Below, in pieces: positions 2,199-63,260 of a stretch of 64,000 nucleotides of DNA (its first letter is position 1; every line of letters begins with the position of its first letter). This stretch comes from Dokdonella sp. (GTDB lineage: Bacteria; Pseudomonadota; Gammaproteobacteria; Xanthomonadales; Rhodanobacteraceae), in NCBI GenBank assembly GCA_024707225.1, contig JANQAE010000002.1:372001-436000 (forward strand), written 5' to 3'. The translations under genes were made by a program, and so were the position numbers. The notes below the pieces were generated by a model, which was given only the letters and a program-made list of their open reading frames with translations, made no database searches and was not told where the DNA came from.

Positions 2199-3524
2199 TC
2201 ATTCGAAGCCGTACGCGAAGATCTCGTCGATCAGCACCGAGTGGTGCGCGAGGATGAAGATGTCGGTCTTGCCGTTGCCGTCGGTGGGGTCGATGTCGGT
2301 CGCGTTGGACTCGAACACCATCGACAGGCCGGAGCCGTTGACGGCCATCGTGTAGCCGGACGGCTGGTTCCCGGGTGCGCTGCCGGTGCCGGTGCTGATC
2401 AGCTCCGGCGCGCCGGCGCCCGGTACGAACAGGAACACCTGCGAGTACGAGGACGCGCCGTTCGGCAGCGGACAGGCCATGATGACCGAGCCGATGCTCG
2501 AGATCGCCGAGACGTTGCAGCTGTCGTAGTTGCTCGCTGCGACCAGCGGCGGGCGCGGAATCGCGATCGTGGTCTGGGTCTGGCGGTCGCGCAGGTAGAT
2601 GCCGCTGTTGCTGTTGATGTTGGCGCCGTCGGCGAAGCCGAGTCCGCCGTAACCGGGTGCCTGGAAGCTGACGAAGCGGCCGCTCGGCGAGATCGCGTAG
2701 CGGTTGGGAAACGCAGTGGAGCCCGGGCCATTGGCGCCGACGCGGCTGATCAGCTCGGTGGTGTTGGTCTGCAGGTCGCGCACGTAGATCTGCACGGTGC
2801 CGGCGCCGGGCAGCATCTCGACATTGCAGTACATCGCGATGTAGCGGCCGTCGTCGGACAGGGCGTGCGGCCGCAGCTCGCAGTGGCCACCGGAGGGGCT
2901 GCCGTCGGCCTTGGCCGAGGCCATCTTGATCTGGCCGGTGACCATGTCCTTGACGAAGACTTCGCGTCCGTTGCCGGGCGGCAGGCCGAAGTTGGTCGCG
3001 GCGGTCTCGACGGCGACGTAGCGGCCGTCGGCCGAGATCGACACGGTGTCGTCGTTGGTGCCGCCGTCGGCGGGCTGGCCGGCGGCATTGGTGCTGGCCA
3101 CTTCCAGGCCGCCGGTCAGGCGATCCTTGCGTGCGATCTGCCAGCTCGGGCCGATGTTGCTGATGTCATAGGTCAGGAACGCCACGTAGCGGCCGTCGCC
3201 CGAGACGGCCGGCGCCTCGCCGCGGAAGACCGTGCCGTTGGGCATGCTCGAGACGATGTCGATCACGCCGGTCATCAGGTCGACCGCGACCGCGCGGTTG
3301 CCGTTGTACGGGTTGCCGCCCCAGTTGCTGGCGTCGCTCGAGAACACGACCGTGCGGCCGTTCGAAGATACGCTGACGTTCTTCGACTCGCCGTTGGGCT
3401 CGATACCGGCGGCCGGCGTGATGCGTCCGTAGAGGAAGCCGGCATGGGCGGCGCCGGACAGCAGCGAAAGGCCCGATACGACCAGGGCGGACACAAGGGG
3501 GCGGCGCATTGCGATGAGGTCCAT
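2199..3524 (-). CDS. Exported TolB-like (PD40) beta-propeller protein with C-terminal IFAYGFE tail
   Basis: A 441-residue exported protein. Residues 1-28 form a signal peptide ending in GAAHA. The body holds at least five PD40/WD40-like repeats, seen as SSNGRTVVFSS, SGDGRYVAFLT, SADGRYVAVET, SDDGRYIAMYC and SPSGRFVSFQA. These indicate a TolB-type beta-propeller. The extreme C-terminus reads VLIDEIFAYGFE, resembling the tail of other exported proteins in this window. The start at 3524 is supported by a GGAG sequence seven bases upstream. The gene stands alone, convergent with the esterase. No enzymatic residues are recognisable, so it may be a binding or surface protein. The C-terminal tail may be a sorting signal, which is inference. 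Confidence 0.8.
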   Translation of the reverse strand: MDLIAMRRPLVSALVVSGLSLLSGAAHAGFLYGRITPAAGIEPNGESKNVSVSSNGRTVVFSSDASNWGGNPYNGNRAVAVDLMTGVIDIVSSMPNGTVFRGEAPAVSGDGRYVAFLTYDISNIGPSWQIARKDRLTGGLEVASTNAAGQPADGGTNDDTVSISADGRYVAVETAATNFGLPPGNGREVFVKDMVTGQIKMASAKADGSPSGGHCELRPHALSDDGRYIAMYCNVEMLPGAGTVQIYVRDLQTNTTELISRVGANGPGSTAFPNRYAISPSGRFVSFQAPGYGGLGFADGANINSNSGIYLRDRQTQTTIAIPRPPLVAASNYDSCNVSAISSIGSVIMACPLPNGASSYSQVFLFVPGAGAPELISTGTGSAPGNQPSGYTMAVNGSGLSMVFESNATDIDPTDGNGKTDIFILAHHSVLIDEIFAYGFE

Positions 3525-3937
3525 GAACGGCTCCGGGGGCAGGGGTCTGCATCCCTTTACGCAGTTTCACGGCCAGACCCCCAATGTGCCGAAGTCCGAT
3601 GCGACCCGGCCTTGTTCCTGCAGGCCACCACGGCGGGCGGGCGTCGGTAGAGCCCGGTGCACCGTCTGGGAGCGGCTAGGCGGGCGGACGCGGTACCGGA
3701 GCCGTGGTCGGCCCTCCGTGCCTGGCCTGCCCAGGCGGGCCACGGCGGTGCGTCCGCGGGGATGCCGGGCGCTCGCACTCGCAATCGGGAGCCGCCGCCG
3801 CGCGCGCTGGTCCGTCTGTCCGGAGAACTGTGTACCTCGGCACTGCCCGGCCGGACCTCGCTTGGGCCGGACCCGTCGGCGGCCGCGCGCGGCCGGAGCG
3901 TCTGGCTTCGTGCCGGCTTCGGACTGAAGACGATCGC
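3525..3937. other. Gene-free interval
   Basis: This is 413 bp between two minus-strand genes, holding the promoter region of the exported propeller gene. Neither strand has a frame with recognisable protein features, and I saw no clear hairpin terminator. Confidence 0.35.
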
Positions 3938-4777
3938 CTAGCGTCCGAACAGTTTTCGCGCATTACCGACGCGAATCCTGGCCTTCTCCTCGTCGGTCAG
4001 CGGCAACCGGTCGAGCGCGTTGACGGTGCTGGCGAGGCTGATCTGCGGATAGTCCGAACCGAGCAGCACCTGGTCGATGCCGACGTTGCGCAGCGTCCAG
4101 ACGAACTCGTCCGCGAGCGGCGAGCCGGCGACGACGATCACGGTCGCCGAGACGTCGAAGTAGAGGTTCTTCATCGCGAAGCCGTCGGCGGTCCGCGCCA
4201 GCGCCAGGACGTTCCAGAACCGGAAGTTGAGGCCGCCGATGTGGGCGAGGATGAAGCGCGTCTGCGGCACGGCGACGACCAGATTGAACAGCTTCTCGCT
4301 GTCGCCGGGCAGGATGTTGGCGTTGTCGAGCAGCACCGTGATCCCCAGCGTACCGGCCTTGCGCACCAGGGCCGCGACGCGCGGATCGGCGACGTCGAAG
4401 CGCTGCGTATGCGCATGCAGCTTCAATACCTTGACGCCGGCTGCGGCGACGCGCGCGAGCTCGTCGATCGCCGCGGCACCATCGTAGGGGTGCACCGTCG
4501 CGATCGGCAGCACGGTCGGATGCCGGGCGGCCAGTGCGATCACGCCGTCGTTGCCGGCGCGGATTCTGCCGGTCTCGCCCTGGCGCGCCTGGTTCGGGCC
4601 GCCGAACCACATCGCGCCGACGCCGGCCAGCTCGAGGCCGGCGGCCTTGGCGTCCGCTTCGTAGGCGCGCAGCGAGGTCTCGCCGTCGCGCAGATGCACG
4701 TGCACGTCGAACACCGGTGCGGCCGCGGCCACGCCGGTCAGCAGCAGCATCGTCAGCAGGGCATGGGCGTAGCGCAT
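3938..4777 (-). CDS. Exported amidohydrolase-family (amidohydrolase 2) metal-dependent hydrolase
   Basis: A 279-residue TIM-barrel hydrolase. A short signal peptide (MRYAHALLTMLLLTGVAAAA) is followed at once by DVHVHLRDG, the HxH metal-binding strand of the amidohydrolase superfamily. Further barrel motifs are KLHAHTQ (strand 5-type His), ILAHIGG (strand 6-type His) and LLGSDYP, whose Asp is the usual strand-8 acid. The protein belongs to the amidohydrolase-2 group, which includes decarboxylases and lactonases; the substrate cannot be assigned. The start at 4777 is chosen because GAGGAGA lies just upstream and a signal peptide begins there. The frame stays open further upstream only as a shadow of the neighbouring gene. 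Confidence 0.85.
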   Translation of the reverse strand: MRYAHALLTMLLLTGVAAAAPVFDVHVHLRDGETSLRAYEADAKAAGLELAGVGAMWFGGPNQARQGETGRIRAGNDGVIALAARHPTVLPIATVHPYDGAAAIDELARVAAAGVKVLKLHAHTQRFDVADPRVAALVRKAGTLGITVLLDNANILPGDSEKLFNLVVAVPQTRFILAHIGGLNFRFWNVLALARTADGFAMKNLYFDVSATVIVVAGSPLADEFVWTLRNVGIDQVLLGSDYPQISLASTVNALDRLPLTDEEKARIRVGNARKLFGR

Positions 4778-21686: not shown

Positions 21687-23251
21687 ACGCTTCACCGACG
21701 CCGGTTCGCGTCTACGTACCGCTCGACACCAGCGCGCGCGCGGTCGGCGCCGACGCGGTCGCGCGCGCGATCGCCGCCGAGGCCGAGCGGCGCGGCCTGC
21801 CGCTGACCGTGGTCCGCAATGGTTCGCGCGGGATGTTCTGGCTCGAGCCGCTGGTCGAGGTCGAGGCCCCGGCCGGCCGGATCGGCTACGGGCCGGTCGC
21901 CGTCGCCGACGTGCCGGCGTTGTTCGAGGCAGGCTTTCTCGCCGGCGGTGCGCATCGCCTGCGCGTCGGCGCGGTCGCCGAGCTGGCGTATTTCCGCAAC
22001 CAGGAGCGCCTGTGCTTCTCGCGGATCGGCACGATCGATCCGCTCGACCTCGAGGACTATCGTGCGCACGGCGGCTGGGCCGGCCTCGAACGCGCGCTGG
22101 CGATGGACGGCGCGGCGATCGTGCAGGCCGTGCTCGACTCGGGTCTGCGCGGCCGCGGCGGCGCGGCGTTTCCGGCCGGCATCAAGTGGAAGACCGTGCT
22201 CGGCGCCGAGGCCGGGCAGAAGTACATCGTCTGCAATGCCGACGAGGGCGACTCGGGCACGTTCTCCGACCGCATGATCTTCGAGGGCGATCCGTACCGC
22301 CTGATCGAGGGCATGGCGATCGCCGGCCTCGCGGTCGGCGCGACGCAGGGCTACGTCTATCTGCGCAGCGAATACCCGCTCGCATTCGCGCTGTTTCGCG
22401 AGGCGATCGACCGCGCGCGCGCCGCCGGCTGGATCGGTGCGGACGTATGCGGCAGTGGCCGCAGGTTCGAGCTCGACGTGCGCATGGGTGCCGGCGCCTA
22501 CGTCTGCGGTGAGGAGACCTCGCTGCTCGAGAGCCTCGAGGGCAAGCGCGGCCAGGTCCGCTTCAAGCCGCCGCTGCCGGCGCTCAAGGGCCTGTTCGGC
22601 CGGCCGACCGTCATCAACAACGTCATCACGCTGGCCTCGGTGCCGGACATCCTCGCGCACGGCGCCGAGTGGTATCGCGACTACGGCGTCGGCCGCTCAC
22701 GCGGCACGCTGCCGCTGCAGCTCGGCGGCAACATCCGCTACGGCGGCCTGATCGAGAAGGCGTTCGGCCTGACCCTGCGCGAGCTGCTCTACGACTACGG
22801 CGGCGGCTCGGCCAGCGGCCGGCCGATCCGCGCGGTGCAGGTCGGCGGTCCGCTCGGCGCGTATCTGCCCGAATCGCAGTTCGACACTCCGATCGACTAC
22901 GAGGCGTTCGCGGCGATCGGCGCGATGCTCGGCCACGGCGGCATCGTCGTCTTCGACGACACGGTCGACATGGCCGAGCAGGCGCGCTTCGCGATGGAGT
23001 TCTGCGCGATCGAGTCCTGCGGCAAGTGCACGCCGTGCCGGATCGGCTCGACGCGCGGCGTGGAGGTGGTCGCCAGGATCCAGGCCGCGCGCGAGGTCGA
23101 GCGCAACACGGCGCTGCTGCGCAGCCTCTGCGACACGATGCTCAACGGTTCGCTGTGCGCGCTCGGCGGCCTGACGCCGTATCCGGTGCTCAGCGCGCTC
23201 AACCATTTCCCCGAGGATTTCCGGCCGCGCGATCACGCGCAGGTCGCCTGA
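21683..23251 (+). CDS. fdsB: NAD-dependent formate dehydrogenase beta subunit (NuoF-like)
   Basis: A 522-residue flavoprotein subunit that passes electrons from the enzyme to NAD+. The N-terminal ~120 residues are a thioredoxin-like extension. The NuoF core includes the NADH/FMN segment [33 protein letters not shown] and [20 protein letters not shown] [4Fe-4S] cluster is bound by Cys446, Cys449 and Cys452 ([16 protein letters not shown]) plus a downstream Cys in NGSLCALGG. It starts within the end of fdsG, and fdsA follows after 54 bp. The length and motifs match FdsB of soluble FDHs. Confidence 0.95.
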
Positions 23252-23305
23252 CGGCGCGCCGGCCGGTCGCGGCCGGCCGGTGCGCGCAGCAGCGAGGTTC
23301 ACGCC

Positions 23306-26245
23306 ATGCGTTCGATAGCCGAAGCCGATTACGGCACCCCCGCCATCCAGCTCCTGTCGAGCCTCAAGCCGGTGCGGCTCGAGATCGACGGCGTCGCCGT
23401 CAGCGTGCCGCCGGGTACCTCGGTGATGCGCGCCGCCGCGCAGAGCGGCATCGCGATCCCGAAGCTGTGCGCGACCGATACGCTCGAGGCCTTCGGCTCG
23501 TGCCGGCTGTGCCTGGTCGAGATCGAAGGCATGCGCGGCTATCCGGCCTCGTGCACGACGCCGGTCGCCGAGGGCATGAAGGTCGCGACACAGACGCCGA
23601 AGCTCGGCGAGATGCGCCGCGGTGTGATGGAGCTGTACATCTCCGACCATCCGCTGGACTGCCTGACCTGTCCGGCCAACGGTCATTGCGAGCTGCAGGA
23701 CATGGCCGGCGTGGTCGGCCTGCGCGAGGTCCGCTACGGCTACGACGGCGCCAACCACGTCCAGCCCTACGTGGCCGCGGACGGCGCGATCTCCGGCCAC
23801 GGCGCCGCGACGGCGCTGGTCGCCAATCCGCTGTACGTCGCCAAGGACGAGACCAATCCGTACTTCACGTTCGATCCGTCCAAGTGCATCGTCTGCTCGC
23901 GCTGCGTGCGCGCCTGCGAGGAGCAGCAGGGCACGTTCGCGCTGACGATCCAGGGCCGCGGCTTCGATTCGAAGGTCGCCGCCAGCCAGGACGATCCGTT
24001 CCTCGCGTCCGAATGCGTGTCCTGCGGCGCCTGCGTGCAGGCCTGCCCGACCGCGACCCTGTCGGAGAAATCGCTGATCGCGCTCGGCCAGGCCGAGCAC
24101 AGCACGGTCACGACCTGCGCCTACTGCGGCGTGGGCTGCTCGTTCCGCGCCGAGATGAAGGGCGAGGAGGTCGTGCGCATGGTGCCGGACGTCGACGGCA
24201 AGGCCAATCACGGCCATTCCTGCGTCAAGGGCCGCTTCGCGTTCGGCTACGCGACGCATCCGGACCGCATCACGACGCCGATGATCCGCGAGAAGATCAC
24301 CGATCCGTGGCGCGTGGTGTCGTGGGAGGAGGCGATCGCGCACACCGCGCGCGAGTTCCGCCGCATCCAGGCCGCCTATGGCCGCGACGCGGTCGGCGGC
24401 ATCACCTCCTCGCGCTGCACGAACGAGGAGACCTACCTCGTGCAGAAGCTGGTGCGCGCCGGATTCGGCAACAACAACGTCGACACCTGCGCGCGCGTGT
24501 GCCATTCGCCGACCGGCTACGGGCTCAAGCAGACGCTCGGCGAGTCGGCCGGCACGCAGGACTTCGACTCGGTCATGGACGCCGACGTGATCATGGTGAT
24601 CGGCGCCAATCCGACCGACGGCCATCCGGTGTTCGGCTCGCAGATGAAGCGCCGGCTGCGCCAGGGTGCGCGGCTGATCGTCGTCGATCCGCGCCGCATC
24701 GACCTGGTGCGCACGCCGCACGTCAAGGCCGACTACCACCTCAAGCTCAAGCCCGGCACCAACGTCGCGCTGCTGACCGCGCTGGCGCACGTGATCGTCA
24801 CCGAAGGCCTGGTCGACGAGGCCTTCGTCGCGCTGCGCTGCGAGACCGATGCGTTCGACAAGTGGCGCCGGTTCGTCGCCGATCCGCGCCATTCGCCCGA
24901 GGTCAGCGAGGCCGATACCGGCGTGCCGGCGGCGCTGGTGCGCGGCGCCGCGCGCCTGTTCGCGACCGGCGGCAACGCGGCGATCTATTACGGCCTCGGC
25001 GTCACCGAGCACTCGCAGGGCTCGACCTCGGTCATGGCGATCGCGAACCTCGCGATGGCGACCGGCAACGTCGGCCGCCGCGGCGTCGGCGTCAACCCGC
25101 TGCGCGGCCAGAACAACGTGCAGGGCTCGTGCGACATGGGCTCGTTCCCGCACGAGCTGCCGGGCTACCGCCACGTCTCGGACGGCTCGACGCGTGCGCT
25201 GTTCGAGTCGGCCTGGGGCGTGACGCTGCATCACGAGCCGGGCCTGCGCATTCCGAACATGTTCGAGGCCGCGCTCGACGGCGAGTTCAAGGGCCTCTAC
25301 ATCGAAGGCGAGGACATCGCGCAGAGCGATCCGAACACGCAGCACGTCACCGCCGCGCTGACCGCGATGGAATGCATCGTCGTGCAGGACCTGTTCCTCA
25401 ACGAGACCGCGAAGTTCGCGCACGTCTTCCTGCCCGGCTCCTCGTTCCTCGAGAAGGACGGCACGTTCACCAACGCCGAGCGGCGCATCTCGCGCGTGCG
25501 GCGCGTCATGAGGCCCAAGGCCGGCTATGCCGACTGGGAGATCACGCAGCTGCTCGCCAATGCGCTCGGCTACCCGATGGACTACCGCCATCCGTCCGAA
25601 ATCATGGACGAGATCGCGCGGCTGACGCCGACGTTCCACGGCGTCAGCTACGCCAAGCTCGATCGCGAGGGCAGCGTGCAGTGGCCGTGCAACGAGACCG
25701 CGCCGGACGGCACGCCGACGATGCACATCGACCAGTTCGTGCGCGGCAAGGGCAAGTTCATGCTGACCGAGTACGTGCCGACCGCCGAGAAGGTCAACGC
25801 GAAGTTCCCGCTGATCCTGACCACCGGCCGCATCCTCAGCCAGTACAACGTCGGCGCGCAGACGCGCCGTACCGCCAACAACACCTGGCACGCCGAAGAC
25901 CGGCTCGAGCTGCATCCGCACGACGCCGAGCAGCGCGGCATCGCCGAGGGCGACTGGGTCGGCATCGAGAGCCGCGCCGGCGAGACCGTGCTGCGCGCGA
26001 CGATCAGCGACCGCATGCAGCCGGGCGTCGTCTACACGACGTTCCACTTCCCGTTCTCGGGCGCCAACGTGATCACGACCGAGAACTCGGACTGGGCGAC
26101 CAACTGTCCCGAGTACAAGGTCACCGCGGTCGAGGTCACGCGCGTCAGCCAGCCCTCGGAGTGGCAGCAACGCTATCGCGCCTTCAGCGAGCAGCAGCAG
26201 GCGCTGCTGCGCGAACGGCGCAAGGAAGCCGCACCGGCACGCTGA
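23306..26245 (+). CDS. fdsA: NAD-dependent formate dehydrogenase alpha subunit (Mo-bisMGD, NuoG-like N-terminus)
   Basis: A 979-residue catalytic subunit that oxidises formate to CO2. The N-terminal [2Fe-2S] ligands are Cys55, Cys66, Cys69 and Cys83. A NuoG-type His-Cys cluster follows (His115, Cys119, Cys122, Cys128 in DHPLDCLTCPANGHCE). Two ferredoxin-type [4Fe-4S] motifs come next (CIVCSRCVRACEE, CVSCGACVQACPT), then the molybdopterin-proximal cluster (CAYCGVGCSF). The molybdenum ligand is Cys399 followed by His400 in RVCHSPT, so this is a cysteine rather than selenocysteine enzyme. The gene is intact, and the length fits FdsA (about 960-980). The partners fdhD and fdsD lie 5 kb downstream instead of directly following. 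Confidence 0.96.
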   Translation: MRSIAEADYGTPAIQLLSSLKPVRLEIDGVAVSVPPGTSVMRAAAQSGIAIPKLCATDTLEAFGSCRLCLVEIEGMRGYPASCTTPVAEGMKVATQTPKLGEMRRGVMELYISDHPLDCLTCPANGHCELQDMAGVVGLREVRYGYDGANHVQPYVAADGAISGHGAATALVANPLYVAKDETNPYFTFDPSKCIVCSRCVRACEEQQGTFALTIQGRGFDSKVAASQDDPFLASECVSCGACVQACPTATLSEKSLIALGQAEHSTVTTCAYCGVGCSFRAEMKGEEVVRMVPDVDGKANHGHSCVKGRFAFGYATHPDRITTPMIREKITDPWRVVSWEEAIAHTAREFRRIQAAYGRDAVGGITSSRCTNEETYLVQKLVRAGFGNNNVDTCARVCHSPTGYGLKQTLGESAGTQDFDSVMDADVIMVIGANPTDGHPVFGSQMKRRLRQGARLIVVDPRRIDLVRTPHVKADYHLKLKPGTNVALLTALAHVIVTEGLVDEAFVALRCETDAFDKWRRFVADPRHSPEVSEADTGVPAALVRGAARLFATGGNAAIYYGLGVTEHSQGSTSVMAIANLAMATGNVGRRGVGVNPLRGQNNVQGSCDMGSFPHELPGYRHVSDGSTRALFESAWGVTLHHEPGLRIPNMFEAALDGEFKGLYIEGEDIAQSDPNTQHVTAALTAMECIVVQDLFLNETAKFAHVFLPGSSFLEKDGTFTNAERRISRVRRVMRPKAGYADWEITQLLANALGYPMDYRHPSEIMDEIARLTPTFHGVSYAKLDREGSVQWPCNETAPDGTPTMHIDQFVRGKGKFMLTEYVPTAEKVNAKFPLILTTGRILSQYNVGAQTRRTANNTWHAEDRLELHPHDAEQRGIAEGDWVGIESRAGETVLRATISDRMQPGVVYTTFHFPFSGANVITTENSDWATNCPEYKVTAVEVTRVSQPSEWQQRYRAFSEQQQALLRERRKEAAPAR

Positions 26246-26275
26246 GGCGCCGCCGCGCCAGCGGGCTGCCGCGCC

Positions 26276-26296
26276 GCCGGCCCGAATCGGGCCGGC
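26276..26296. terminator. Hairpin between convergent fdsA and kinase genes
   Basis: GCCGGCCCGA and TCGGGCCGGC form a 10-bp GC-rich stem around a single base (or a slightly shorter stem with a 3-5 nt loop). It has no U-tract, but its place between convergent stops suggests a transcription-ending or processing element. Confidence 0.45.
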
Positions 26297-26367
26297 CGGC
26301 GCTCGATCGCGGAACGACGGGTGCACACCTGCCCAAGCCGGCGCTTCGCATCGCGACGGCGTGCCGT

Positions 26368-29090
26368 TCAGCGCGTATCGGTGACCGCGTAGCGCGCGGC
26401 CCTGCCGCAGTCGCGCCGCGTCGGCCGGCAGGGCCTGCCGCAGCGCCGCCTGCGCGGCCGCCACGCGATCGCGCGCCTGCGCGTTGCCGTCGCGCCGCCA
26501 CAGGCAGCCGGCCGCGACCGCTTCGGCGTGCAGGCGCTGCGGATCGTCGGCGGCGGTCCCGGCGCGCGCGAGCACGGCGAGGGCCTCCTCGGCGAGCGTG
26601 CAGTCGCTGGCGCCGAGCGCGAGCTCCACCTCGGCACGCTCGGTCAGCGTCCTGGCCAGATGCGAGGGCTTCGGCGAGGCATGCGCGCGCAGCAGGCCGA
26701 GCGCCTCGTCGACGCGCGCCTTCGCCTCACCCAGCCGGCCCTGCTCGCGTGCCGCGCCGGCGCTGCCGGTCAGGCTGAACGCGACGTCGGTCGGATCGCC
26801 GCCGGCGCGGCGGATCGCCAGCGCCTCGCCCCAGAGCCGCTCCGCCTCGGTCCAATGGCCGAGCGCGTATTCGGTCGTCGCCAGGTTGTTGAGCGTCGCG
26901 CCGAGCTTGCGCGAGCCGGGCGGCTCGGTGGCCTGCACGCCGGCCAGCGATTCCTTCATCGCTGCGTTCGCGCCGGCGTAGTCGTGCGCGCGCAGCAGGC
27001 TGAAGGCCAGGTTGTTGAGCCGGATCTGCACGTAGCCGTGCGCGTCGCCGTAGAGCCGGCGCGTGATCGCCAGCGCCTCGCGGCGCAGCGCGACCGCCTC
27101 GCCGGCCTCGCTCGCGGCGGTATAGGTATTGGCCAGTGCGTCCAGCGCATCGGCCAGGCGCGCCGGATTCTCGTCCGGTGCCGCACGCAGCGCCGCGACC
27201 ACCGGCGTCAGCACCGCGCGCGCGTCGGCGACGCGGTCCTGCTCGTCGTAGGCCCAGCTCAGCGTGATCGCCGCGCTGGCGGTCTGGCTGTCGCCGGGCC
27301 CGCGCGTCGCGCCGAACAGCGCCACGCCGCGCGCCATGTCGTCGATCGCGCCGGCCGCGTCGCCGAGCGCGAGGCGGTTGATGCCGCGCGACACCAGCAG
27401 GTCGGCCGCCAGCTCGCCGTCGGCCGCCTCGGCCGGCAGCAGGTCGGCCGCCTCGTCCAGATGCCGCCCGGCCAGTGCCAGATCGTCGCCGCCGCCGCGG
27501 CTGCGGCCCATCAGCACCAGAGCGCGCACGCGCTTGAGCGTATCGCCGGGCAGGGCTTCGCGCTGCACGGTTAGCGCGCGCTCGAACAGCGGATAGGCGC
27601 GGCCCAGATCGCCGATGCCCAGATACGCCTCGCCCATCGCGACGAGCAGGCCGTAGCGCATCGCCGCATCGTCGAGGCGATGCCGGTCGATGCGCTCGAC
27701 GCCGCGCTGCAGCAGCTCCTCGGCGGTGACCTTGCGGCCGCGCGTCAGCGCCGGATCGGCGCTGCGGAAGATGTCGAGCAGGAACTGGATCGTCTGTTCG
27801 GCCTTGCCGCTCTCGCTGCGCGCCAGATCGCGCTGCGCGCGCGCCTCGGCGGCCTGCCAGAGCGCCGCGGTCAGGCCGGCCGCCAGCGCGAGCACGGCGG
27901 CGGCGGCCAGACCGGCGGCCAGTGCATGGCGGCGCACGAAGCGGCCGGCGCGGTAGCGCCAGCCGCCGCGCCGCGCGGCGACCGGCCGGCCGGCGAGATG
28001 GTGCTCCAGATCGGCCGCCAGCTCGGCCACCGATGCGTAGCGATGCGCCGGGTCCTTGCGCAGCGCCTTGAGCGCGATCGCGTCGAGATCGCCGCGCAGC
28101 GCGCGATGCAGGCGCCGCGACACCGGCGCGTCGGATCCGCCGCCGGCCTGCAGCACGGCCTGGCTCGGCCGCGCCGGCTCCTGGTCGAGGATCGCCCGTT
28201 CGTACGCGGCCGGCGTGCTGCGCGCGAGGCGATACGGCCGCCGGCCGGTCAGCAGCTCGTACAGCAGCAGGCCGAGCGCGTGCACGTCGACCGCCGTGGT
28301 CACCGGCTCGCCGCGCACCTGCTCGGGCGCGGCGTACTCGGGCGTGAACACGCGCGCGGCACTGACGCCGGCATCGCCGGCATCGACCAGCTTGGCGATG
28401 CCGAAATCGAGCAGCTTGACCTCTCCGGCCGGCGTGACCAGCAGGTTCGACGGCTTGAGATCGCGATGCACGATCAGCCGCGCATGCGCATGCGCGACCG
28501 CCGCGCAGACGATCAGGAACAGACGCAGCCGCGCGGCGATGCCGAGTCCGGCACGTTCGCAGTACGTGCGCAGGTCGACGCCGTCGACGTACTCGAGCGC
28601 CAGCCACGGCCGGTCCTCGCCGTCGACGCCGCCGTCGATCAGCCGCGCGATGTTGGGATGGGTCAGGCCGGCCAGGATCTGCCGCTCGGCGCGGAAGCGC
28701 GTGTGCCCGTCGGCGGCATCCCAGCCGCTGCGAATCAGCTTGATCGCGACCTGCTGCGCGAACTGGCCGTCGGCGCGTTCGGCCAGCCAGACCGTGCCCA
28801 TGCCGCCGCGGCCGATCTCGCGCAGCAGCCGGAACGGGCCGACGCGGCGACCGGCGAGATCGGCCTGGGCCGCCCTGACCGGCCAGATCGTCGAGCAGGT
28901 CCGGCGCCTGCGCGGCCAGATCGGTGCCGAGCGATCGGCCGCGATCGGCCGCCAGCAGCGCCAGCACGTCGGCGTGCAGCGCGTCCTCGCCGGGCGCCAG
29001 TGCCCGCAGGCGTTCGTGCCACTGCGCCGGCGGCGTATCGGCCAGCTCGTCGAACAGCGCGCGCACGCGATGCCAGTTCTGCGCATCCAC
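26368..29090 (-). CDS. PknB-type Ser/Thr protein kinase with TPR region (two frameshifts)
   Basis: A kinase of about 900 residues paired with the sigma factor just upstream. The N-terminal ~72 residues (MDAQNWHRVRALFDELADTP to LLDDLAGQ) are in one frame. Near 28880 the frame changes and the kinase domain follows with EIGRGGMGTVWLAE, QVAIKLI, HRDLKPSN and LDFGIAKL. A membrane helix (LAAGLAAAAVLALAAGLTAALW) and about 14 TPR-like units follow. In the kinase frame no stop occurs near the natural end; the frame runs on antisense into the fds genes. A neighbouring frame ends at 26368 as RYAVTDTR, so a second indel near 26400 is inferred. The start at 29090 and the family are secure; the exact C-terminus is not. 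Confidence 0.75.
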
Positions 29091-29135
29091 GATGTCTCTC
29101 CCCTTCTTGCCGGTTGCCGGCTTGCGGCCGCCGTT

Positions 29136-29808: not shown

Positions 29809-31188
29809 TCACTCCAGCGCGTCGGTGAAGATCCGGTCGTTGCCGAGACGCGCGACGGTCAGGTCGTAGTTCTGCGGCGAGGCGTGCAGCGAATGGCCGG
29901 CGACGATCAGGCGGCCCGCCTGCGAGGCGATGCGCATGCCGTAGTCGAACTCGCCCGGCAGCACGAAATCCAGGTAGGTCCGGCCGTTGCTGCCGAACGA
30001 CGGATCGGGCGTGCCGTCGCGGCGCAGCCGCAGCACCGCCATGTCGAGCGCGAAGGCTTCCGTGGCACGGCGCGTGCCGATCAGCGCGATCCGCCCGTCG
30101 GACTGCACGAGGAGGTCATCGGCCACCAGCGAGTGGCCGTCCTCGATCAGCACGCGGCCGTTGCTGCCGAAGCCCGGGTCGAGCGTCAGCAGGGCCGCCG
30201 GTACGATCCGGTACGCGAACAGACGGTAGCGCACGCTCGAGTCGGCGATCTGCGTATTGCCGATCACCAGGATCGTGCCGTCGCGCTGCACGCGCACGCC
30301 CGTGGCGGCCTCGTCGCGATTGAACGGCGCGCCGCCGTCGATCGCCAGGCCCGCGTAACCGGCGCCGGCCTGGAAACCGGGGTCGGGATTGCCGTTGGCG
30401 GTCAGGATCGCGATCAGCGCCGAGGTGCCGTTCTCTGCATCGGGCGAGCCGAACTCGCCGACCACGACGTACTTGCCGTCCGCGGTCCGGTCGATCGCAT
30501 TGAAGCGCGTGACCGGTGTCGGCCCGAGCTGGTAGCTGCGCTTTCCCTGGATGCCGTAGGTCGCATCGAAACTGCCGTCGCCGTGCAGCCGCGCGATCGC
30601 GCCCAGTTCGACGCCGCCGGGCAGGCGCGTGGTGCCGACCAGCAGGATGCGTCCGTCCGGTTCGACCAGCAGGTCGTTGACGACGTCGGCGCGCTCCTCG
30701 TTCTGCGTGTCGAACGCGATCGTCACGCAGGCGCCGCCGATCGCGCCGAACGGCAGCGGCTGGCCCTGCGGCGTGTAGCGGCACACGTGGAAGTCGGTAT
30801 TGGTGCCGCTCACGGTGCGGAAGCCGGCGACCAGCAGGTTGCCGGCGCCGTCGAAGCGCGCGCGCCGCGCGGTCAGGTCCGTGGCGGACGAGTAGACGGT
30901 GCCGCCGACGCCGAACGACTCGTCGCGGATGCCCGCGGCGGTCAGGCGCGTGATCGCCTGGCGCGAGCCGCCGGCGGTCTGCGCCGTGCCGACCAGATAG
31001 ATCGATCCGTCCGGGGCGACCAGCGCGCCGGCCGACTGGTCGGCGTTGCCGCCGCCCTGGTCGTGGGCGATGACGTTGCGGCCGGTGCCGAAGATGCCGA
31101 AGTTCGGGTCGAGCAGGCCGTCCTGGGCGTGGACGGCGCCGGCGGCGAGGATCAGCGCGAGTGCGGGCGTAGCGATGCGGCGGTGCAT
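29809..31188 (-). CDS. Exported delta-60-repeat beta-propeller protein with IFTDALE tail
   Basis: A 459-residue exported protein. A signal peptide (MHRRIATPALALILAAGAVHA) precedes at least six delta-60-type repeats of the form DGxxLxxG. Examples are GNLLVAGFR, GRILLVGTT, GKYVVVGEF, GTILVIGNT, GRIALIGTR and GRLIVAGHS, with alternating DPxFGSNG linkers. The C-terminus reads LGNDRIFTDALE, which resembles the IFxxGFE ending of other exported proteins here. The start at 31188 has AGGAGA upstream. Such proteins are common in Lysobacterales and have no assigned enzymatic function. It separates the second sigma-kinase pair from fdhD-fdsD. Confidence 0.85.
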   Translation of the reverse strand: MHRRIATPALALILAAGAVHAQDGLLDPNFGIFGTGRNVIAHDQGGGNADQSAGALVAPDGSIYLVGTAQTAGGSRQAITRLTAAGIRDESFGVGGTVYSSATDLTARRARFDGAGNLLVAGFRTVSGTNTDFHVCRYTPQGQPLPFGAIGGACVTIAFDTQNEERADVVNDLLVEPDGRILLVGTTRLPGGVELGAIARLHGDGSFDATYGIQGKRSYQLGPTPVTRFNAIDRTADGKYVVVGEFGSPDAENGTSALIAILTANGNPDPGFQAGAGYAGLAIDGGAPFNRDEAATGVRVQRDGTILVIGNTQIADSSVRYRLFAYRIVPAALLTLDPGFGSNGRVLIEDGHSLVADDLLVQSDGRIALIGTRRATEAFALDMAVLRLRRDGTPDPSFGSNGRTYLDFVLPGEFDYGMRIASQAGRLIVAGHSLHASPQNYDLTVARLGNDRIFTDALE

Positions 31189-46837: not shown

Positions 46838-49800
46838 ATGCGTGTGTGTCCCCTCCCTTCTGGTCGCGCTGCCGGAAGGACATCGATCCCTCAACCGCCT
46901 CGGCCTTCGCGTGTGCGCCGCAGACACCGGCTCTTCGCGGCGGCCCTGGGTTCACTGCTGGCGGCGAGCGCCTGGGCGGCCGCGTCGCCGGAAAGGCCCA
47001 CGTTGCGGGTTGCGCGAGCCGGGGAGTCGTTCATATCGACCGAAATCCCGGCCGGCACCGGAGCCCCCGCCAATCCGTGGTTCGAGTCGCAGCGGCTCGA
47101 GGGTTCGGCCAACGCCAATCGCGGCGATCAGTTCGGACGTGGCGTCGCCGTCGAAGGATCGACCGCGATCGTCGGAGCGCCCATCACGCGAGCGACCGGT
47201 ACCACGTCCTCCAAGGGCGCTGCGTATGTCTATACGCTCCAGGGCGACCAGTGGGTCGAAACGCAGTTTCTGACCGGCTCGCAGCAGTCCTCCGGAAACT
47301 CGAGCGACAACTATGGGTGGGCGGTTGCCTTGCAGGGGGATACCGCCGTCGTCTCCGCCAAGACCAGCACGCTGGGCGGCGTGCAACGCGGCATTGCCTA
47401 TGTCTATGTGCGGGAGAGCGGCACATGGATCGAGCAGGGCGTGCTGATCCCCGGCGACGGGGGGCAGTTCGACGACTTCGGTGACGTGGTGGCCATCGAC
47501 GGCGACACCGTGGTCGTCGGTGCGCGCGGCCACCGGCCCCAGGCCAATGCCTATGAAGTGGGCGCCGCTTATGTATTCACGCGCAGCGGAGGAACCTGGA
47601 CTCAGCAGGCGAAGCTGATGGCGGACGATTCGGAACTGTGGGCGGGGTTCGGGGCATCGGTCGCCATCGACGGCGACCACCTCCTGGTGGGCCGCACCGG
47701 CCGCAGCGACTACCCCCGGATCGGGACCGTGTACGCGTTCTCGCGCACCGGCACCACCTGGACACAGACGCAGCGGATCCACCGGACCGACGGCGTCGCC
47801 AACGACTACTTCGGAACATCGGTCGCGCTCGACGGTGATACGGCCCTGGTAGGTGCCATCGGCACCGCCACCAATGGGGACTATTCCGGCGCCGTCCACG
47901 CGCTGCAGCGCACCGGCGGCGTATGGACCCAGGTCCAGACCTTGGCGGCCGCGGACGCACAGCCGCTGGACCAGTTCGGCCAATCCCTGGTTCTGCACGG
48001 CGACCGCGTCGTGATCGGCGCGCCCGCCACCAGCCGAGCGTTCAACCTGGAGGGCAGAGCGTATCTGTTCTCGCGCGGGAGCCAAGGCTGGACTCAGGAA
48101 CGGCTCCTCACCAACAGCGCGCCGAGGCGGGGCGAGACCTTCGGGTTCGGTCTCGGGTTGACCGAGGAGTTCGCGTTCGTCGGCGCCCCGTTCTGGAGCG
48201 GCGCATCGGGCTTCACGGGCACCCCGACCGCCGTCATCGTCTTTCGCAATACCGACCGGCCGTACCTGTACGTCGATCCGGCCACGCTCGCCCTGCAGCC
48301 CACCGCGGCGGGCTACACGAGTCCCGTCGGAATCGCCACCATCGGCAACAGCGGTCAGACGTCCGCTCTCGTGACCGCGATCGATGTTCCGGCGGGCCCG
48401 TTCTCGCTGGTCTCGGGTTCTTGCGGGACGCTGCCGTTCAGCCTTGCGCCCGGCGCGCAGTGCACCTTGGGATTCACCTTCTCGCCGCCGTCGGTTCAGA
48501 GCTACTCGGCAGCCGTGCAGATCAGCAGCAACGCCTTGAACAAGGCCGTCACGCTGTCCTTGAGCGGTGCGGGCATTCCGCCCCGGGCGCTGCTCTCGGC
48601 GGTCGATCCGGCCGCCGTCTCGGCCACGATGACGGCCGGCGCAACCTCGAGTGCGACGGTGACGCTCGCCAACGGCGGCACCGCCGCACTCGATTGGCAG
48701 ATGGTCGATCAGGCGAGCGATCCGACGGTGAGCGTCCTGCTCGAGCCCGGCGTCAGCGATACGATCCTTCCGGAAAATACCTTGGCGTGCCTGATGCAGG
48801 GTCCGGTCAGTGCGCCAGCCCATTTCTTCCGCACCTTCGCCCTCTCCGATTTCGCCGTCGACGGCGCTTTTGCGGTGGAGCAGGTCGAGTTCGGCATCGA
48901 GCAAGCCAGCGTAGCGACCGATGTCACGGTGCGCCTGCATCGGCTCGACGGTCCCATGTCGTTCGAGAATCTCGACCTGCTCGCCGAGACCGTCGTTCAC
49001 GTGGAGCCTCAGGCGCTGAGCATGGTCACCGTGCCGATCGCTGCGGATCTCCCCGCGGGTACGACGCTGGTGGTCGAACTGATCACCCCGGACCTGCGCG
49101 AGAGCAGCGGCGTGATCATTCCCGGATCGAACCAGTCCGGTGAAAGTGCCGCTTCGTGGTTTGCGGCGCCCGCGTGCGGCTATGCCCAGCCCACCGCCTA
49201 TTCGAGCATGTTCGGCTTTCCGCCGCCCGTCGTTCACCTGGTCTTGTCGGCGAGCGGGCATCCGATCGACTGTGCGGTACCGCAGTGGCTCGATGCCGAT
49301 CCTCAGAGCGGAGGCATCGCGCCGTTCTCGAGCAGTACGTTCTCGGTTCAAATGGACAGTTCGGGGCTGTCGATCGGCGAGCACACGGCCAACCTGTGCA
49401 TCACGTCCAATGCCGCCAACAGGCCGCTCGTGGCGCTACCGGTCTCGGTCCATGTCGAGGAACCGGTCGCCACGCTGGCACTGGACCCGGGCACCGCGGA
49501 TTTCGGCGGCATCCTGGTCGGCTCCAGCAGCGGAGCGCTCGCCGTTTCGCTCTCGAGCACCGGAAACACGCCGGTCACGATCGATGCCATAGCAGCGGCG
49601 AGCGCGCCGTTCCACGCTGCGCCGGGGAGCTGCCCGGCGGCGCCGTTCACGCTCGCTCCGGCACAGACCTGCGAGCTCGTCTATACGTTCTCGCCGCTCG
49701 ACGCGGGAATCGCCTCGCAGACGCTCGCCGTCACCTCCAGCGCGGGCGACCACACGCTCGTGCTTCGCGGCGAGGGGTTGGCGCCTGCGGCGCTCGCCAT

Positions 49801-50968
49801 GATCGATGGCAGCGGGCAGGTCGCACGCGTCGGCGCACCGTTCGAGCGCCCGCTCGTCCTGCAAGTGCGTGACGGGTCCAATCGGCCGCTGGCCGGAGTT
49901 CCCGTGATGTTCTCGGCCCCCGGTCAGGGCGCCGGTGCGAGCCTCCCGGCGAGCTCGCTCGTCAGCGACGCGAACGGCATCGTCTCGGTCACCGCGGTGG
50001 CCAATTCGCAGGCGGGCGACTACATCGTCGAAGCATCGGCATCCGGTGATGCCGCGCCTCTCGCGTTCGCCCTCAGCAACCGTCTTGCCGCGGCGGACAT
50101 CGCGGTCCAGATCAGTGCCCTCGATGCGTATGCCGTACCGGGCCGTTTCGTCGATTACTGGGTCACGCTGCACAATGCAGGCCCCGACGCCGCCAGTTCG
50201 ATTCAGTTGGAGATGTCCCTCTCCGCGGCGCTCGACGCAAGCGCAACCCAGTGGATCTGCATCGGTCCGGCGTCCTCCGGTTGCACCGCCGGCGGAGCCG
50301 GCGCGCTCAGCGACAGCGTCAATCTGGTCGCGGGAGGAAGCGTGAGCTGGCTCGTCACGGCGCCGGTGCGTCTGGACACCACGGAGGCGGGCGTGCTGAC
50401 TTCGGTCCAGGTGGTCCACGCCGACGACCCCAACGGAAGCAATGACGCCGCCAGCATCTTCACGGTCACGGCATTGTTCCGCGACGGATTCGAGCCTTAC
50501 GGCATCGGCAGCGAGGAAGTGGCCGCACCCGTCCCCGCGTCGAGGTTCTGGGAAAGCGCCGATGTCCTGAGTGTGAACTGGACTGGCCCAGCGCAGCCTC
50601 AGCCTGCGCAGTCGGCAATGATCGCAACGCTGATGGAAAGCCGTGCAGCCGATGCGGCCTCCGCCGGCAGCCAGTTCCGGATCGAGCATCTGGCTGCGTC
50701 AGGTGGAGACTGGTTACGCCTGGTGAGCATCGAGACGGACGGCATGGCGCGAGCGCAGCCCTGGCAGGCGGCCTCTCCGGCCGGCGCCGTCATGATCGCG
50801 GCGGTGCGCGAAGAGGGAGCGGCTTCCGGGCGGTCCGGCACGCTGGTCGTCTCGGCCCGGGACGGCATTGCGGAATGGCAAGCGACGTTGCGTGAATTGA
50901 CCCCTGTATACGCGCTGCGCCATGCCGCTAACGTCGGGGTGTCCGTCATGTCTCGCGAACCGGAATAG
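46838..50968 (+). CDS. Giant exported FG-GAP / choice-of-anchor D / Ig-like / DUF11 protein
   Basis: A 1376-residue exported protein with an Arg-rich N-region and signal sequence (RLFAAALGSLLAASAWAAA, about 31-49). Residues about 85-470 hold seven FG-GAP-like units of the form DxFGxxVAxDGDTxxVGA, a beta-propeller with possible Ca2+ sites. Two choice-of-anchor D (ASH)-like beta domains follow, at about 475-590 and 880-985. A Big-type Ig domain lies at about 1005-1090 and a DUF11-like repeat at 1090-1205. LFRDGFE, the tail motif seen at the ends of other exported proteins, occurs internally near residue 1213 and is followed by about 155 more residues. A terminator-like hairpin lies at 50996-51027. 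It is a likely surface or matrix protein; no enzyme domain was recognised. Confidence 0.82.
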   Translation: MRVCPLPSGRAAGRTSIPQPPRPSRVRRRHRLFAAALGSLLAASAWAAASPERPTLRVARAGESFISTEIPAGTGAPANPWFESQRLEGSANANRGDQFGRGVAVEGSTAIVGAPITRATGTTSSKGAAYVYTLQGDQWVETQFLTGSQQSSGNSSDNYGWAVALQGDTAVVSAKTSTLGGVQRGIAYVYVRESGTWIEQGVLIPGDGGQFDDFGDVVAIDGDTVVVGARGHRPQANAYEVGAAYVFTRSGGTWTQQAKLMADDSELWAGFGASVAIDGDHLLVGRTGRSDYPRIGTVYAFSRTGTTWTQTQRIHRTDGVANDYFGTSVALDGDTALVGAIGTATNGDYSGAVHALQRTGGVWTQVQTLAAADAQPLDQFGQSLVLHGDRVVIGAPATSRAFNLEGRAYLFSRGSQGWTQERLLTNSAPRRGETFGFGLGLTEEFAFVGAPFWSGASGFTGTPTAVIVFRNTDRPYLYVDPATLALQPTAAGYTSPVGIATIGNSGQTSALVTAIDVPAGPFSLVSGSCGTLPFSLAPGAQCTLGFTFSPPSVQSYSAAVQISSNALNKAVTLSLSGAGIPPRALLSAVDPAAVSATMTAGATSSATVTLANGGTAALDWQMVDQASDPTVSVLLEPGVSDTILPENTLACLMQGPVSAPAHFFRTFALSDFAVDGAFAVEQVEFGIEQASVATDVTVRLHRLDGPMSFENLDLLAETVVHVEPQALSMVTVPIAADLPAGTTLVVELITPDLRESSGVIIPGSNQSGESAASWFAAPACGYAQPTAYSSMFGFPPPVVHLVLSASGHPIDCAVPQWLDADPQSGGIAPFSSSTFSVQMDSSGLSIGEHTANLCITSNAANRPLVALPVSVHVEEPVATLALDPGTADFGGILVGSSSGALAVSLSSTGNTPVTIDAIAAASAPFHAAPGSCPAAPFTLAPAQTCELVYTFSPLDAGIASQTLAVTSSAGDHTLVLRGEGLAPAALAMIDGSGQVARVGAPFERPLVLQVRDGSNRPLAGVPVMFSAPGQGAGASLPASSLVSDANGIVSVTAVANSQAGDYIVEASASGDAAPLAFALSNRLAAADIAVQISALDAYAVPGRFVDYWVTLHNAGPDAASSIQLEMSLSAALDASATQWICIGPASSGCTAGGAGALSDSVNLVAGGSVSWLVTAPVRLDTTEAGVLTSVQVVHADDPNGSNDAASIFTVTALFRDGFEPYGIGSEEVAAPVPASRFWESADVLSVNWTGPAQPQPAQSAMIATLMESRAADAASAGSQFRIEHLAASGGDWLRLVSIETDGMARAQPWQAASPAGAVMIAAVREEGAASGRSGTLVVSARDGIAEWQATLRELTPVYALRHAANVGVSVMSREPE

Positions 50969-61075: not shown

Positions 61076-61642
61076 TCAGTCGCGCCCGGCCAGCGGACCC
61101 ATGTAGAGCCGGTAGTAGGCGAGCTCGGCGATCGAGTCGCGGACGTCGCTGAGCGCCGTATGCGCGGCTTCCTTGACGAAGCCGCGTCCGATCTCGGGCG
61201 ACCAGCGCCGCACCAGTTCCTTGATCGTCGAGACGTCGAGGTTGCGGTAGTGGAAGTAGCGCTCGAGCCGCGGCATCAGCCGGTGCAGGAAGCGGCGGTC
61301 CTGGCAGATCGAGTTGCCGCACATCGGCGACTTGCCGGCCGGCACCCATTGCGCGAGGAACGCCACCGTGCGCGCCTCGGCGGTCGCGATGTCGATGTCC
61401 GATTCGACCACGCGCTGCCAGAGCCCGGACTTGGCATGCTGGTTGCGGTTCCACTCGTCCATCGCCTCGAGGCGCTCGACCGGGTGGCGCAGCGCGTACG
61501 CGGGCCCCTCGGCGAGCACGTTCAGATGCTTGTCGGTGATGATCGTGGCGATCTCGAGGATCGAGTCGCGGTCGGTGTCGAGCCCGGTCATTTCCAGGTC
61601 GATCCAGACCAGATTGTCCTCGTGCACCTGCGTCACCGTCAT
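61076..61642 (-). CDS. orn: Oligoribonuclease
   Basis: A 188-residue DEDDh 3'-5' exoribonuclease that degrades 2-5-nt RNAs, including pGpG from c-di-GMP turnover, in the cytoplasm. The catalytic residues are Asp15 and Glu17 ([11 protein letters not shown]), Asp115 (ICQDRRFL), His161 and Asp166 ([11 protein letters not shown]). The length is the family norm of about 180. It is an essential gene in many gammaproteobacteria. It appears monocistronic. Confidence 0.97.
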
Positions 61643-61798
61643 CGCGTCTCGCCCTTCGGAACGGAGCCCTATTCTGCCTGCAGCCGCGGGGGGCGCAAAG
61701 AAAATGCGGCCGGTGCCTTCCGTGGCCCCGGCCGCTCGGGGTAACCATGGCGAAAGAGCACCCGCGCCGTCCGTGGCACGGGCACCCGGGAAAGCGGC

Positions 61799-63260
61799 TC
61801 AGCGCGGCTCGAAGTCGCCGAGGAAGATCCGGTCCGCCCCGTACTCGTAGGCGCCGATGTCGGGCCGGGCGGCGGCGGTATTGGCCTGGTTCGGGTCGCT
61901 CCAGGCGCGGACGAAGCCGGGGCCGCGCTGGTCGGTGGTCAGGCCGCCCGGGTTGGAGCCGGCGTCGATCGCCGGGCTGGTACGTGCCAGCGCGTGCACC
62001 GGGACGAAGCCGAGGCCGCCGCCGTGCATCGCCAGCGGCCGCAGCTCGCGCGTCGGTCGCGAACCGGTTGGCGACCGACTCGCCGTTGATCGCGCCGGCC
62101 TCCGGCAGCGTGTGGAACAGCGAGTGGCGCACATGCACCGTGCTCGGGTTCTGCGGCGAGGTCGAGGCATGCGACAGGTCGGTCGCCGGCGTCGCGCTGG
62201 TGCCGTTGGTGTTGTGGTTGAACAGCGTGCTCTCGATCGTCACCGTCGTGGCGGTGCCGGACACCCACAAGGCGCCGCCCGCGCCGACCGGATCGGAGTA
62301 GGTCGGACCGTTCTTGTTGTAGGCGAACGTGCTGTTGCGGATCACCGTGTTGCCGCCGGTCAGCGACAGGGCGCTGGCGCGTCCGGACTGGTGGCGCGAT
62401 CGGTTGTCCGAGAACGTCGTGTTCTCGATGACCGCGCCGGGGTCGCCGGGATTGTTCGACACGGTCAGCTCGAGGCCGCCGCCGTGCGGCTGCCCGGTCG
62501 AGTTGGCGAAGAACGTGCTGTTGGCGATGCGCAGGCTGGTGACGGTGTTGATCGCCGCGCCGCCGCCGGTATGGTCGGCCCAGTTGTCCTGGACCAGCGT
62601 GTCGCTGATCACCACGTTCACGCGCGGCGAGCTCAGGCGCATGCCGCCGCCGAACGCGGCGCGATTGCCGGCGATGAAGCTGCGCGTGATCGTCGCGGTG
62701 CCGGCGGTGAAGTAGATGCCGCCGCCGTAGCCGGATACCTCCGAGGCGCGGTTGTCGGCGACGACGACGCCGTCGAGGCCGAGGTCGGCTTCGGTCATCC
62801 AGATCGCGCCGCCGTGGTTGGTCGCGACGTTCGCGCTCAGCGTCACCGCGACCAGATTGAGATTGTCGTCGTTGGCCCAGATCGCGCCGCCGTCGTCGGC
62901 GCGGCCGCGCCGCAGCGTCAGCCCGCTCAGCGTGACCGTGCGCGGGTTGCCGCTCTGCCGCTGCACGCGGAACAGGCGCGTGGCGCCGTTGCCGTCGATC
63001 GCGAGCACGCCGGCACCGGGGCCCCGTACGTGCACGCTGCTGCCGATGCGGATCTCGCTGCCGAGCACGATCGAGCCGGCGAGGCCGGCCTGGAACTGGA
63101 TCAGATGCGGCTCGCCGGCGCTGGCGTTGGCCTGGGCGATCGCCTCGCGCAGGCTGCCCGGACCGCCGTCGGCCAGGGTGGAGACCGTGAACGTCGCGGC
63201 GCTCGCCGCCGGAGCGGCGGCCAGCAGGGCGGTCAACAGGGCGGATCGGGCAGGTATCAT
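61799..63260 (-). CDS. Exported right-handed beta-helix (choice-of-anchor Q) protein with IFLGDFEPR tail, one frameshift
   Basis: An exported protein of about 486 residues. The signal peptide ends near PAASA (residue 21). The body is a parallel beta-helix with repeated GGAIW, GGGIYF, GGGMRLSS, GGGAAIN and GGGLELT turns and NSTF/NTTF strands, as in pectate-lyase-like and polymorphic outer-membrane proteins. The frame breaks near 62050: one frame ends ANRFATD and the other resumes as RELRPLAMHGGGLG. It continues through SPAIDAGSN and DIGAYEYG, the choice-of-anchor Q ending. The last residues, DRIFLGDFEPR, resemble the IFxxGFE tail. One extra base explains the break. Confidence 0.82.

Follow-up and report, generated by a model that had tools for sequence, protein, structure and literature searches.

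Why do several exported proteins of unrelated fold end in much the same few residues? The question is raised by a 64-kb stretch of a Dokdonella sp. genome (64,000 nucleotides, analysed whole and called the window here), in which two types of beta-propeller and a beta-helix protein carry a short tail at their C-terminal ends. The consensus of this tail in the bacterium and its relatives is D-x-[ILV]-F-x-[ND]-G-F-E, nine residues. From sequence comparisons, our first choice is that the tail is probably a short linear export tag, perhaps read by the second of the two type II secretion systems (T2SSs) of the order, T2SS-A, in which GspC bears a PDZ domain; we hold this choice tentatively, at somewhat less than an even chance.

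A conserved nine-residue peptide

In 153 tails, sequence information is low upstream of position -9 and conservation begins sharply there, while the Phe, Glu and Gly codons vary freely at their third positions and no conservation extends past the stop codon. The logo of these tails leans to D, I and N/D as loci L120-L199 were picked with those residues fixed, and the comparison was hence repeated on 72 tails unselected at other sites. In this set, -9 is occupied by D (34 tails) or E (11), -7 by I, L, V or M in 69 of 72 (I in 24), -6 by F and -4 by N, D or S in all 72 (N 35, D 25), with G-F-E fixed by the selection of the set. The peptide is shared by genomes with fetched loci at 36% and at 70% GC. 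Because the boundary at -9 is sharp, the third codon positions are free and nothing is kept after the stop, selection acts on the peptide.

The same nucleotide pattern bears on an explanation without functional selection, in which a common 3' end is spread by a DNA repeat or by recombination at gene ends. In its favour, unrelated genes do carry the tail as a movable end, but synonymous sites vary freely, nothing is shared beyond the stop, and the peptide is kept at both GC contents and in many families of the order. A DNA repeat or mobile end is ruled out by this pattern, and we give the explanation scarcely any credence.

The tail has no hydrophobic helix, basic end, cleavage module or consensus Cys. 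Its [ND]-G centre between two Phe residues suggests a small beta-hairpin that may be exposed beyond the last domain. In an AlphaFold model of a tail protein with a choice-of-anchor Q domain (404 aa, 14 alignment rows; mean predicted local distance difference test score 75.6), the beta-helix is confident and the score is below 50 for residues 373-404 and for most of 324-371; the tail looks free, with the domain before it also poorly predicted.

Frequency and position in the Dokdonella genome

The Dokdonella genome comprises 4.37 Mb in four contigs, and the reversed pattern served as control for every motif count, here and below. The strict motif, F..GFE followed by a stop, has nine matches (eight with a true stop) vs none for its reverse, and the wider motif [ILVMF]F..[GDE]FE, without the stop, has 71 vs 5. 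All eight strict cases look exported by family or signal peptide, as judged by eye, some of the reads being cut at the 5' end.

Reading 69 of the 71 wider matches placed 49 within 8 residues of the stop, seven at 9-25 residues and 13 deeper. Nine of the 49 near-terminal copies end exactly at E and 34 carry one to four further residues, so that the bare GFE end seen in the window is a minority form in its own genome. An exact GFE end is common in other genera, but most such loci were chosen for having the stop. The 13 deep matches lie in genes with a signal peptide (eight), in genes without one (four) and outside any gene (one); some of those with no export signal appear to be chance matches, as the five matches of the reversed control would lead one to expect.

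Copies away from the C-terminus include two proteins in which the motif directly follows the signal peptide, at the mature N-terminus (L307 at C1:1783438 and L298 at C4:608435), and one in which 500 residues follow it in total, including a proline-rich linker, a layout repeated in a homologue from G110. In the gene set of the 72 unselected tails, seven copies of the motif are further than 15 residues from the end, all in signal-peptide proteins, and L137 and L199 end in a tandem double tail. The original prediction of a C-terminal tail is therefore upheld for the shared tail itself and corrected for its position, which is often extended and sometimes internal, with copies standing between domains, or N-terminal. 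Since the motif occurs internally, at the N-terminus and with residues following, a free C-terminus appears not to be needed, unless the internal copies are dead. L043 and L296 share a domain of ~165 aa after the motif, at 39% identity; both have a Cys inside the motif and L043 has another soon after, possibly forming a disulfide loop.

Carrier proteins and their export

The 171 tail proteins from the fetched loci form 87 single-linkage sequence clusters. An alignment of 59 cluster representatives has Met1 and the tail F, F and E as its only invariant positions, and the tail G and two further columns as nearly invariant ones; the representatives were picked for the tail, and the invariance of F, F and E among them is by choice of rows. 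At E <=1e-4 the 59 match 50 Pfam families, and the 25 families listed include S8, M12, M14, M28 and M64 peptidases, GH44, endonuclease, GSDH, FG-GAP and beta-propellers; beta-helices also carry the tail. With so many clusters and so little else invariant, the tail is indeed common to otherwise unlike proteins, as had been claimed. In the window's third tail protein and in L088, it directly follows a domain of the NCBIfam choice-of-anchor Q family.

Signal peptides, scored by a simple rule of our own and not by SignalP, were found in 128 of the 155 tail genes with a closed 5' end (four more with a relaxed start, 23 with none, none multi-membrane), vs 395 of 1232 other genes (65 with a relaxed start, 696 with none, 76 multi-membrane; odds ratio 10, p 5e-34). 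This agrees with the predicted enrichment on exported proteins and is an enrichment within loci mostly chosen round tails; an evenly spaced sample of the Dokdonella genome held four tails among 311 genes, too few to test. The 23 tail genes without a signal peptide are mis-started, truncated or like exported families, and by eye none is clearly cytosolic. A signal of the twin-arginine translocation (Tat) type is found by rule in 1 of 215 distinct tail proteins (L197) and by eye in L263. These Tat-type signals point to a reading step after folding, as in a T2SS.

Taxonomic distribution

Of 250 genomes in the order, 167 hold one or more strict matches, up to 66 in the richest, with 0 to 4 per genome for the controls. 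Strict matches number 0 to 2 in 46 of 52 genomes of the Dokdonella family and in 51 of 53 of family f2. In 56 chosen genomes, copies of the wider motif number 18 to 137 in 29 rich genomes and 0 to 7 in 27 poor ones; these genomes were picked by strict counts, which makes the gap partly one of choice, and G063, with four strict tails, has 17 wider copies. In 272 genomes of the class that lie outside the order, 35 matches stand against 31 for the control, a background level. The reversed-pattern controls in the Dokdonella genome, in the order and outside it reject a chance origin of the tail, and the expected lineage specificity takes the form of confinement to part of this order. Carriers among the matches listed include Marinicella, Dokdonella, Tahibacter, Pseudofulvimonas and Pseudomarimonas, together with, as putative carriers, a few metagenome bins labelled Alcanivoracaceae, Sedimenticola, Chromatiales, one Alphaproteobacteria and one Bacillota.

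One enzyme serves as an example, a dehydrogenase whose homologues were compared at 30 loci from a longer match list. In tail-rich genomes, 17 of 21 homologues have the tail, or a close variant of it, at their end, and the other four a different C-terminal extension. In tail-poor genomes, eight of nine are without the tail (mostly members of a distant subfamily or partial reads), and the one from G009 ends LIFQDRFEQ, on account of which genus g28 may hold degenerate tails.

Association with a PDZ-bearing type II secretion system

The two type II systems of the order differ in layout. T2SS-A is a gspC-gspD-gspE cluster, to which several loci add gspF and ftsE/ftsX-like genes (by eye, as are all T2SS gene names beyond the domain-scanned ones). 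The GspC of T2SS-A in the Dokdonella genome (GspC-A) has T2SSC and PDZ domains; a ten-row alignment reaches through the PDZ domain, and the profile made from it matches the PDB chains of OutC, PulC and GspC over the PDZ domain, as well as the PDZ domains of DegP/DegQ. T2SS-B is a long operon in the loci read, in tail-rich and tail-poor genomes alike, and two candidates for its GspC that were scanned gave weak T2SSC matches (one under the cut-off) and no PDZ match.

T2SS-A was scored by GspC-A profile matches at E <=1e-34, a cut set after seeing the listing, with G247 (1.3e-33) just outside. Genomes with at least three strict tails were called tail-positive, as were genera with a median of at least three, any genome with GspC-A counting for its genus. 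GspC-A is found in 78 of 90 tail-positive genomes vs 33 of 160 others, in 61 of 66 vs 19 of 134 at a completeness of at least 90%, and in 31 of 32 tail-positive genera vs 7 of 45 others. Within family f1 it is present in 6/6 tail-positive and 1/46 tail-negative genomes, within f2 in 2/2 and 0/51; f9 offers one contrast (p 0.09). Five tail-positive genomes that are at least 90% complete are without GspC-A (G048, G063, G097, G112 and G118), and the tail-positive status of G112 looks like chance, as it has five strict but two wider matches, neither at a proper gene end. The presence of a T2SS in general does not set tail-rich genomes apart from tail-poor ones: GspD exceeds the curated cut-off in 53 of the 56 (looser GspD matches include pilus secretins), and only the PDZ-type T2SS-A tracks the tail, imperfectly.

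Exosortase-family genes (PF09721) are present in 46 of 90 tail-positive vs 45 of 160 other genomes. A search for a co-occurring protease or ligase had been proposed; the check, run for exosortase only, found no match in 44 of the 90 tail-positive genomes, and exosortase was rejected as the cognate enzyme. In the Dokdonella genome a short exosortase-like gene (C2:354539, a frame of 172 aa with a weak match) lies ~17 kb from T2SS-A, and in G031 the distance is ~14 kb.

T2SS-B loci have neighbours of their own. Two or three conserved exported proteins, of ~480-580 and 310-385 aa, are carried by L309, L311, L313, L320, L326 and L327, followed in L309, L313, L320 and L326 by ABC-2-like transport and methyltransferase or glycosyltransferase-like genes, and in L327 by the latter only (by eye). 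These loci possibly hold a linked cargo and modification cluster.

A candidate export tag and its competitors

From these data we infer a sorting role for the tail. In the mechanism that we place first, the tag, which sits on many unrelated proteins that cross the inner membrane by their signal peptides, would be read in the periplasm at the outer-membrane export step, most likely by T2SS-A, so that tagged proteins would reach the surface or the medium. Having no hydrophobic helix, basic end or cleavage module, it would act as a recognition element and not as a membrane anchor. A T2SS is the best candidate for the reader because it takes folded proteins, because the PDZ-type GspC tracks the tail, and because the GspC PDZ domain helps to select some substrates. 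This domain is needed for some T2SS substrates (PMC12369372), and PelI has a 9-residue loop that makes contact with GspC and GspD and serves as a secretion signal (PMC7949064).

A more specific form of this mechanism, in which the tail is a portable linear T2SS signal for up to ~100 unrelated substrates per genome, read as an exposed beta-hairpin via the GspC PDZ domain or the secretin, is doubtful at present. If true, it would be the first general linear T2SS signal, since T2SS signals have been described without a common linear sequence (according to PMC12369372, a universal linear signal is lacking), and T2SS substrates would become predictable from sequence across much of the order. A T2SS signal of this kind would allow a direct test of a long-standing puzzle, how T2SSs pick folded substrates. 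From sequence alone, the tag picks out many exported proteins throughout much of the order, probably located at the cell surface or outside the cell.

Several observations weigh against recognition by T2SS-A. Classical binding of a terminal carboxylate by a PDZ domain fits poorly with the one to four extra residues on 34 of 49 near-terminal copies and with the internal and N-terminal copies; recognition would then call for an edge-on hairpin or for contact with GspD. Most T2SS substrates studied elsewhere do without such a tag (PMC7949064, PMC12369372). No association between tail and T2SS-A is seen within families f8 (p 0.61) and f10 (p 1), and in genus g28 tails are almost absent although 26 of 30 genomes have T2SS-A. 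Conversely, G097 is without T2SS-A and has 18 motif copies, 3/3 loci read being tails, and G063, also without it, has 17 copies, of which 1/3 loci read is clearly a tail. A PilQ tree of 51 genomes requires at least seven changes for the tails and five for T2SS-A, and reduces the co-occurrence to about three independent co-losses. Over five independent tail contrasts on well-supported branches, T2SS-A changes the same way in 2.9, the opposite way in 0.0 and not at all in 2.1 on average; the direction is right, and with a median sign-test p of 0.25 the contrasts cannot reach significance. For exosortase the corresponding values are 1.4, 0.8 and 2.8. The link to T2SS-A is correlational, and the same picture would result if two ancestral features had been lost together. 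The proposal of a sorting or anchoring signal is in this sense partly supported, with a T2SS as the co-occurring machinery.

A simple surface anchor accounts for the data almost equally well. In this explanation, ranked second and to be taken as possible rather than likely, the tail binds, or is attached to, a receptor in the outer membrane, lipopolysaccharide or matrix, and export proceeds by any T2SS. The position of the tail directly after the choice-of-anchor Q domain fits such a role, and the name "choice-of-anchor" itself points to alternative anchors. The tandem tails of L137 and L199 would suit a binding epitope, G097 and G063 show that tails are carried without T2SS-A, and dozens of copies per genome are also the rule for MYXO-CTERM (PMC11980579). 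No candidate receptor, ligase or protease was found, exosortase being the only enzyme searched (sortase and rhombosortase were not), and its family is missing from nearly half of the tail-positive genomes, as given above. Nor did a dedicated envelope enzyme stand out among the neighbours of tail genes, which are mainly extracytoplasmic function (ECF) sigma factors, kinases and common genes. An anchor would be of a kind without a membrane helix, and would point to a receptor for the tail. Under either reading, the sharp difference from genus to genus is a ready tool for finding the partner of the tail.

The match of the GspC-A profile to DegP/DegQ PDZ domains also favours a third explanation, a periplasmic handling signal, in which binding of the tail by a PDZ protease of the DegP/Prc type, or by a chaperone, governs stability or folding rather than location. 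PDZ proteases typically bind short C-terminal peptides. However, proteases of the DegP/Prc kind are near universal, unlike a tail limited to part of one order, and the residues after the tail and the internal copies misfit a protease that reads the end. We consider this explanation improbable.

Relation to known sorting signals

PEP-CTERM signals consist of a C-terminal transmembrane helix followed by basic residues, LPXTG signals of an LPXTG-like motif, a helix and a basic tail, and the C-terminal domain of type IX secretion systems is a conserved unit of some 70-100 residues. The tails end in F-E, without the helix and basic end of PEP-CTERM; they are also without an LPXTG-like motif, helix and basic end, and without the Gly/Ser motif, hydrophobic stretch and positive end of the GlyGly-CTERM type. 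Nor do they form a type IX-like C-terminal domain, almost nothing being conserved before -9 across clusters.

That the tail is a degenerate form of a known C-terminal sorting signal (PEP-CTERM, IPTL-CTERM, GlyGly-CTERM, MYXO-CTERM or LPXTG) could draw on the presence of exosortase: Exosortase_EpsH exceeds the family cut-off in 91 of 250 genomes, the Dokdonella genome included (36.7 bits), though all but three of the matches are weak (<=~44 bits). The tail, however, has no hydrophobic helix, basic end or model match, and its conservation ends at -9; moreover, G008, G015 and G150, with 84, 87 and 57 motif copies, are none of them among the 91 exosortase-positive genomes. The lack of a membrane helix sets it apart from the known CTERM signals, the architecture of the examined tails rules them out, and we regard a degenerate form as extremely unlikely.

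Closer likenesses are found among T2SS-linked signals. MYXO-CTERM, the myxosortase substrate tag, is likewise a C-terminal tag on dozens of exported proteins of one lineage, with final export by a T2SS and one internal copy; it differs in having three parts, among them an invariant Cys and a transmembrane helix, whereas the tail consists of nine soluble residues with no consensus Cys or helix (PMC11980579). GlyGly-CTERM, processed by rhombosortase, is described as a C-terminal targeting signal of T2SS-exported, surface-located proteins, with a Gly/Ser motif, a hydrophobic region, positive residues and a rhomboid-like protease (PMC6219818, PMC13393428); the tail sequence has no such parts. Loop 3 of PelI/Pel3 is a short exposed element (nine residues in PelI) that contacts GspC and GspD in folded proteins (PMC7949064), and the immunoglobulin fold of VesB is a fold in a folded protein that depends on the GspC PDZ domain (PMC7949064, PMC12369372). 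These elements differ from the tail in being protein-specific, and both papers stress that there is no common linear signal (PMC7949064, PMC12369372). The NCBIfam choice-of-anchor Q domain adjoins the tail in two proteins; the domain is not the tag, and most tailed proteins have other domains.

Six tail peptides gave no match to any Pfam or NCBIfam model, and among 59 tail proteins no NCBIfam family was matched by more than three. A protein search with a typed 22-residue tail gave no match and carries no weight. The literature held no paper on the tail under typical tail strings (the string matches, judged by titles, were taken for author names), and no report of it under choice-of-anchor/CTERM, CTERM/Xanthomonadales sorting, or Dokdonella or Marinicella secreted proteins; wider searches, judged by titles, brought up no such tail either. 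The absence of a described machinery, noted at the outset, is thus borne out within these searches, and among C-terminal export tags the tail therefore appears not to have been described before.

Tail genes of the window and their neighbours

All four tail sites first noted in the window are present in its sequence, and the tail is far more frequent than these sites indicated. An exported PD40-type beta-propeller of 441 aa with a signal peptide (2199..3524, minus strand) ends in DEIFAYGFE at 2202-2228. An exported delta-60/DUF5122 propeller of 459 aa (29809..31188, minus strand, its start taken from our gene call) ends in DRIFTDALE at 29812-29838, a degenerate tail and loose variant of the consensus. 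A giant exported FG-GAP/choice-of-anchor D/DUF11 protein (46838..50968, plus strand) has an internal LFRDGFE at 50474-50494, with 157 aa after it. Genes were called, at 70% GC, with a GC3-seeded codon model.

The third terminal tail, DRIFLGDFEPR at 61802-61834, closes the open reading frame (ORF) 61799..62170 (minus strand), as first described, but not a single intact exported beta-helix gene: the tail and the signal peptide lie in different frames. The ORF with the tail holds the choice-of-anchor Q domain (NF041518), the C-terminal part of the protein, and the frame of ORF 60801-63260 (minus strand) holds the signal peptide and beta-helix, the N-terminal part (62050..63260, 3' limit approximate, minus strand). 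A frameshift near 62.05 kb, either natural or a sequencing error, splits the beta-helix/choice-of-anchor Q gene.

An ECF sigma factor gene (PF07638; 29136..29705, minus strand) adjoins the delta-60 tail gene and is followed by a gene for a Ser/Thr protein kinase with TPR repeats, the likely partner of the sigma factor (22697..29135, minus strand; its real start is uncertain, the ORF running to 29812). Such modules suggest that the tail could be a regulon mark, with ECF sigma-kinase modules controlling the many tail genes beside them. A tail gene is at most two genes away from ECF and kinase genes in 11/16 cases each, more often than from other genes (odds ratio 3.8, p 0.016), and the delta-60 gene of the window is one such adjacency; p, however, ranged from 0.016 to 0.12 over the three distances tried, in loci mostly chosen round tails, and a regulon accounts for co-expression, not for a shared peptide. 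We rate it as very unlikely.

The window has two modules of an ECF sigma factor and a Ser/Thr kinase on the minus strand, at 15540-18355 and 22697-29705, and modules of this kind adjoin tail genes in several genomes. In four genomes, one exported family is found within three genes of a tail gene in 5/5 cases; its members are immediate neighbours of the tail gene in L181, L158, L061 and L068, and in the first three of these the tail protein has only ~90 aa.

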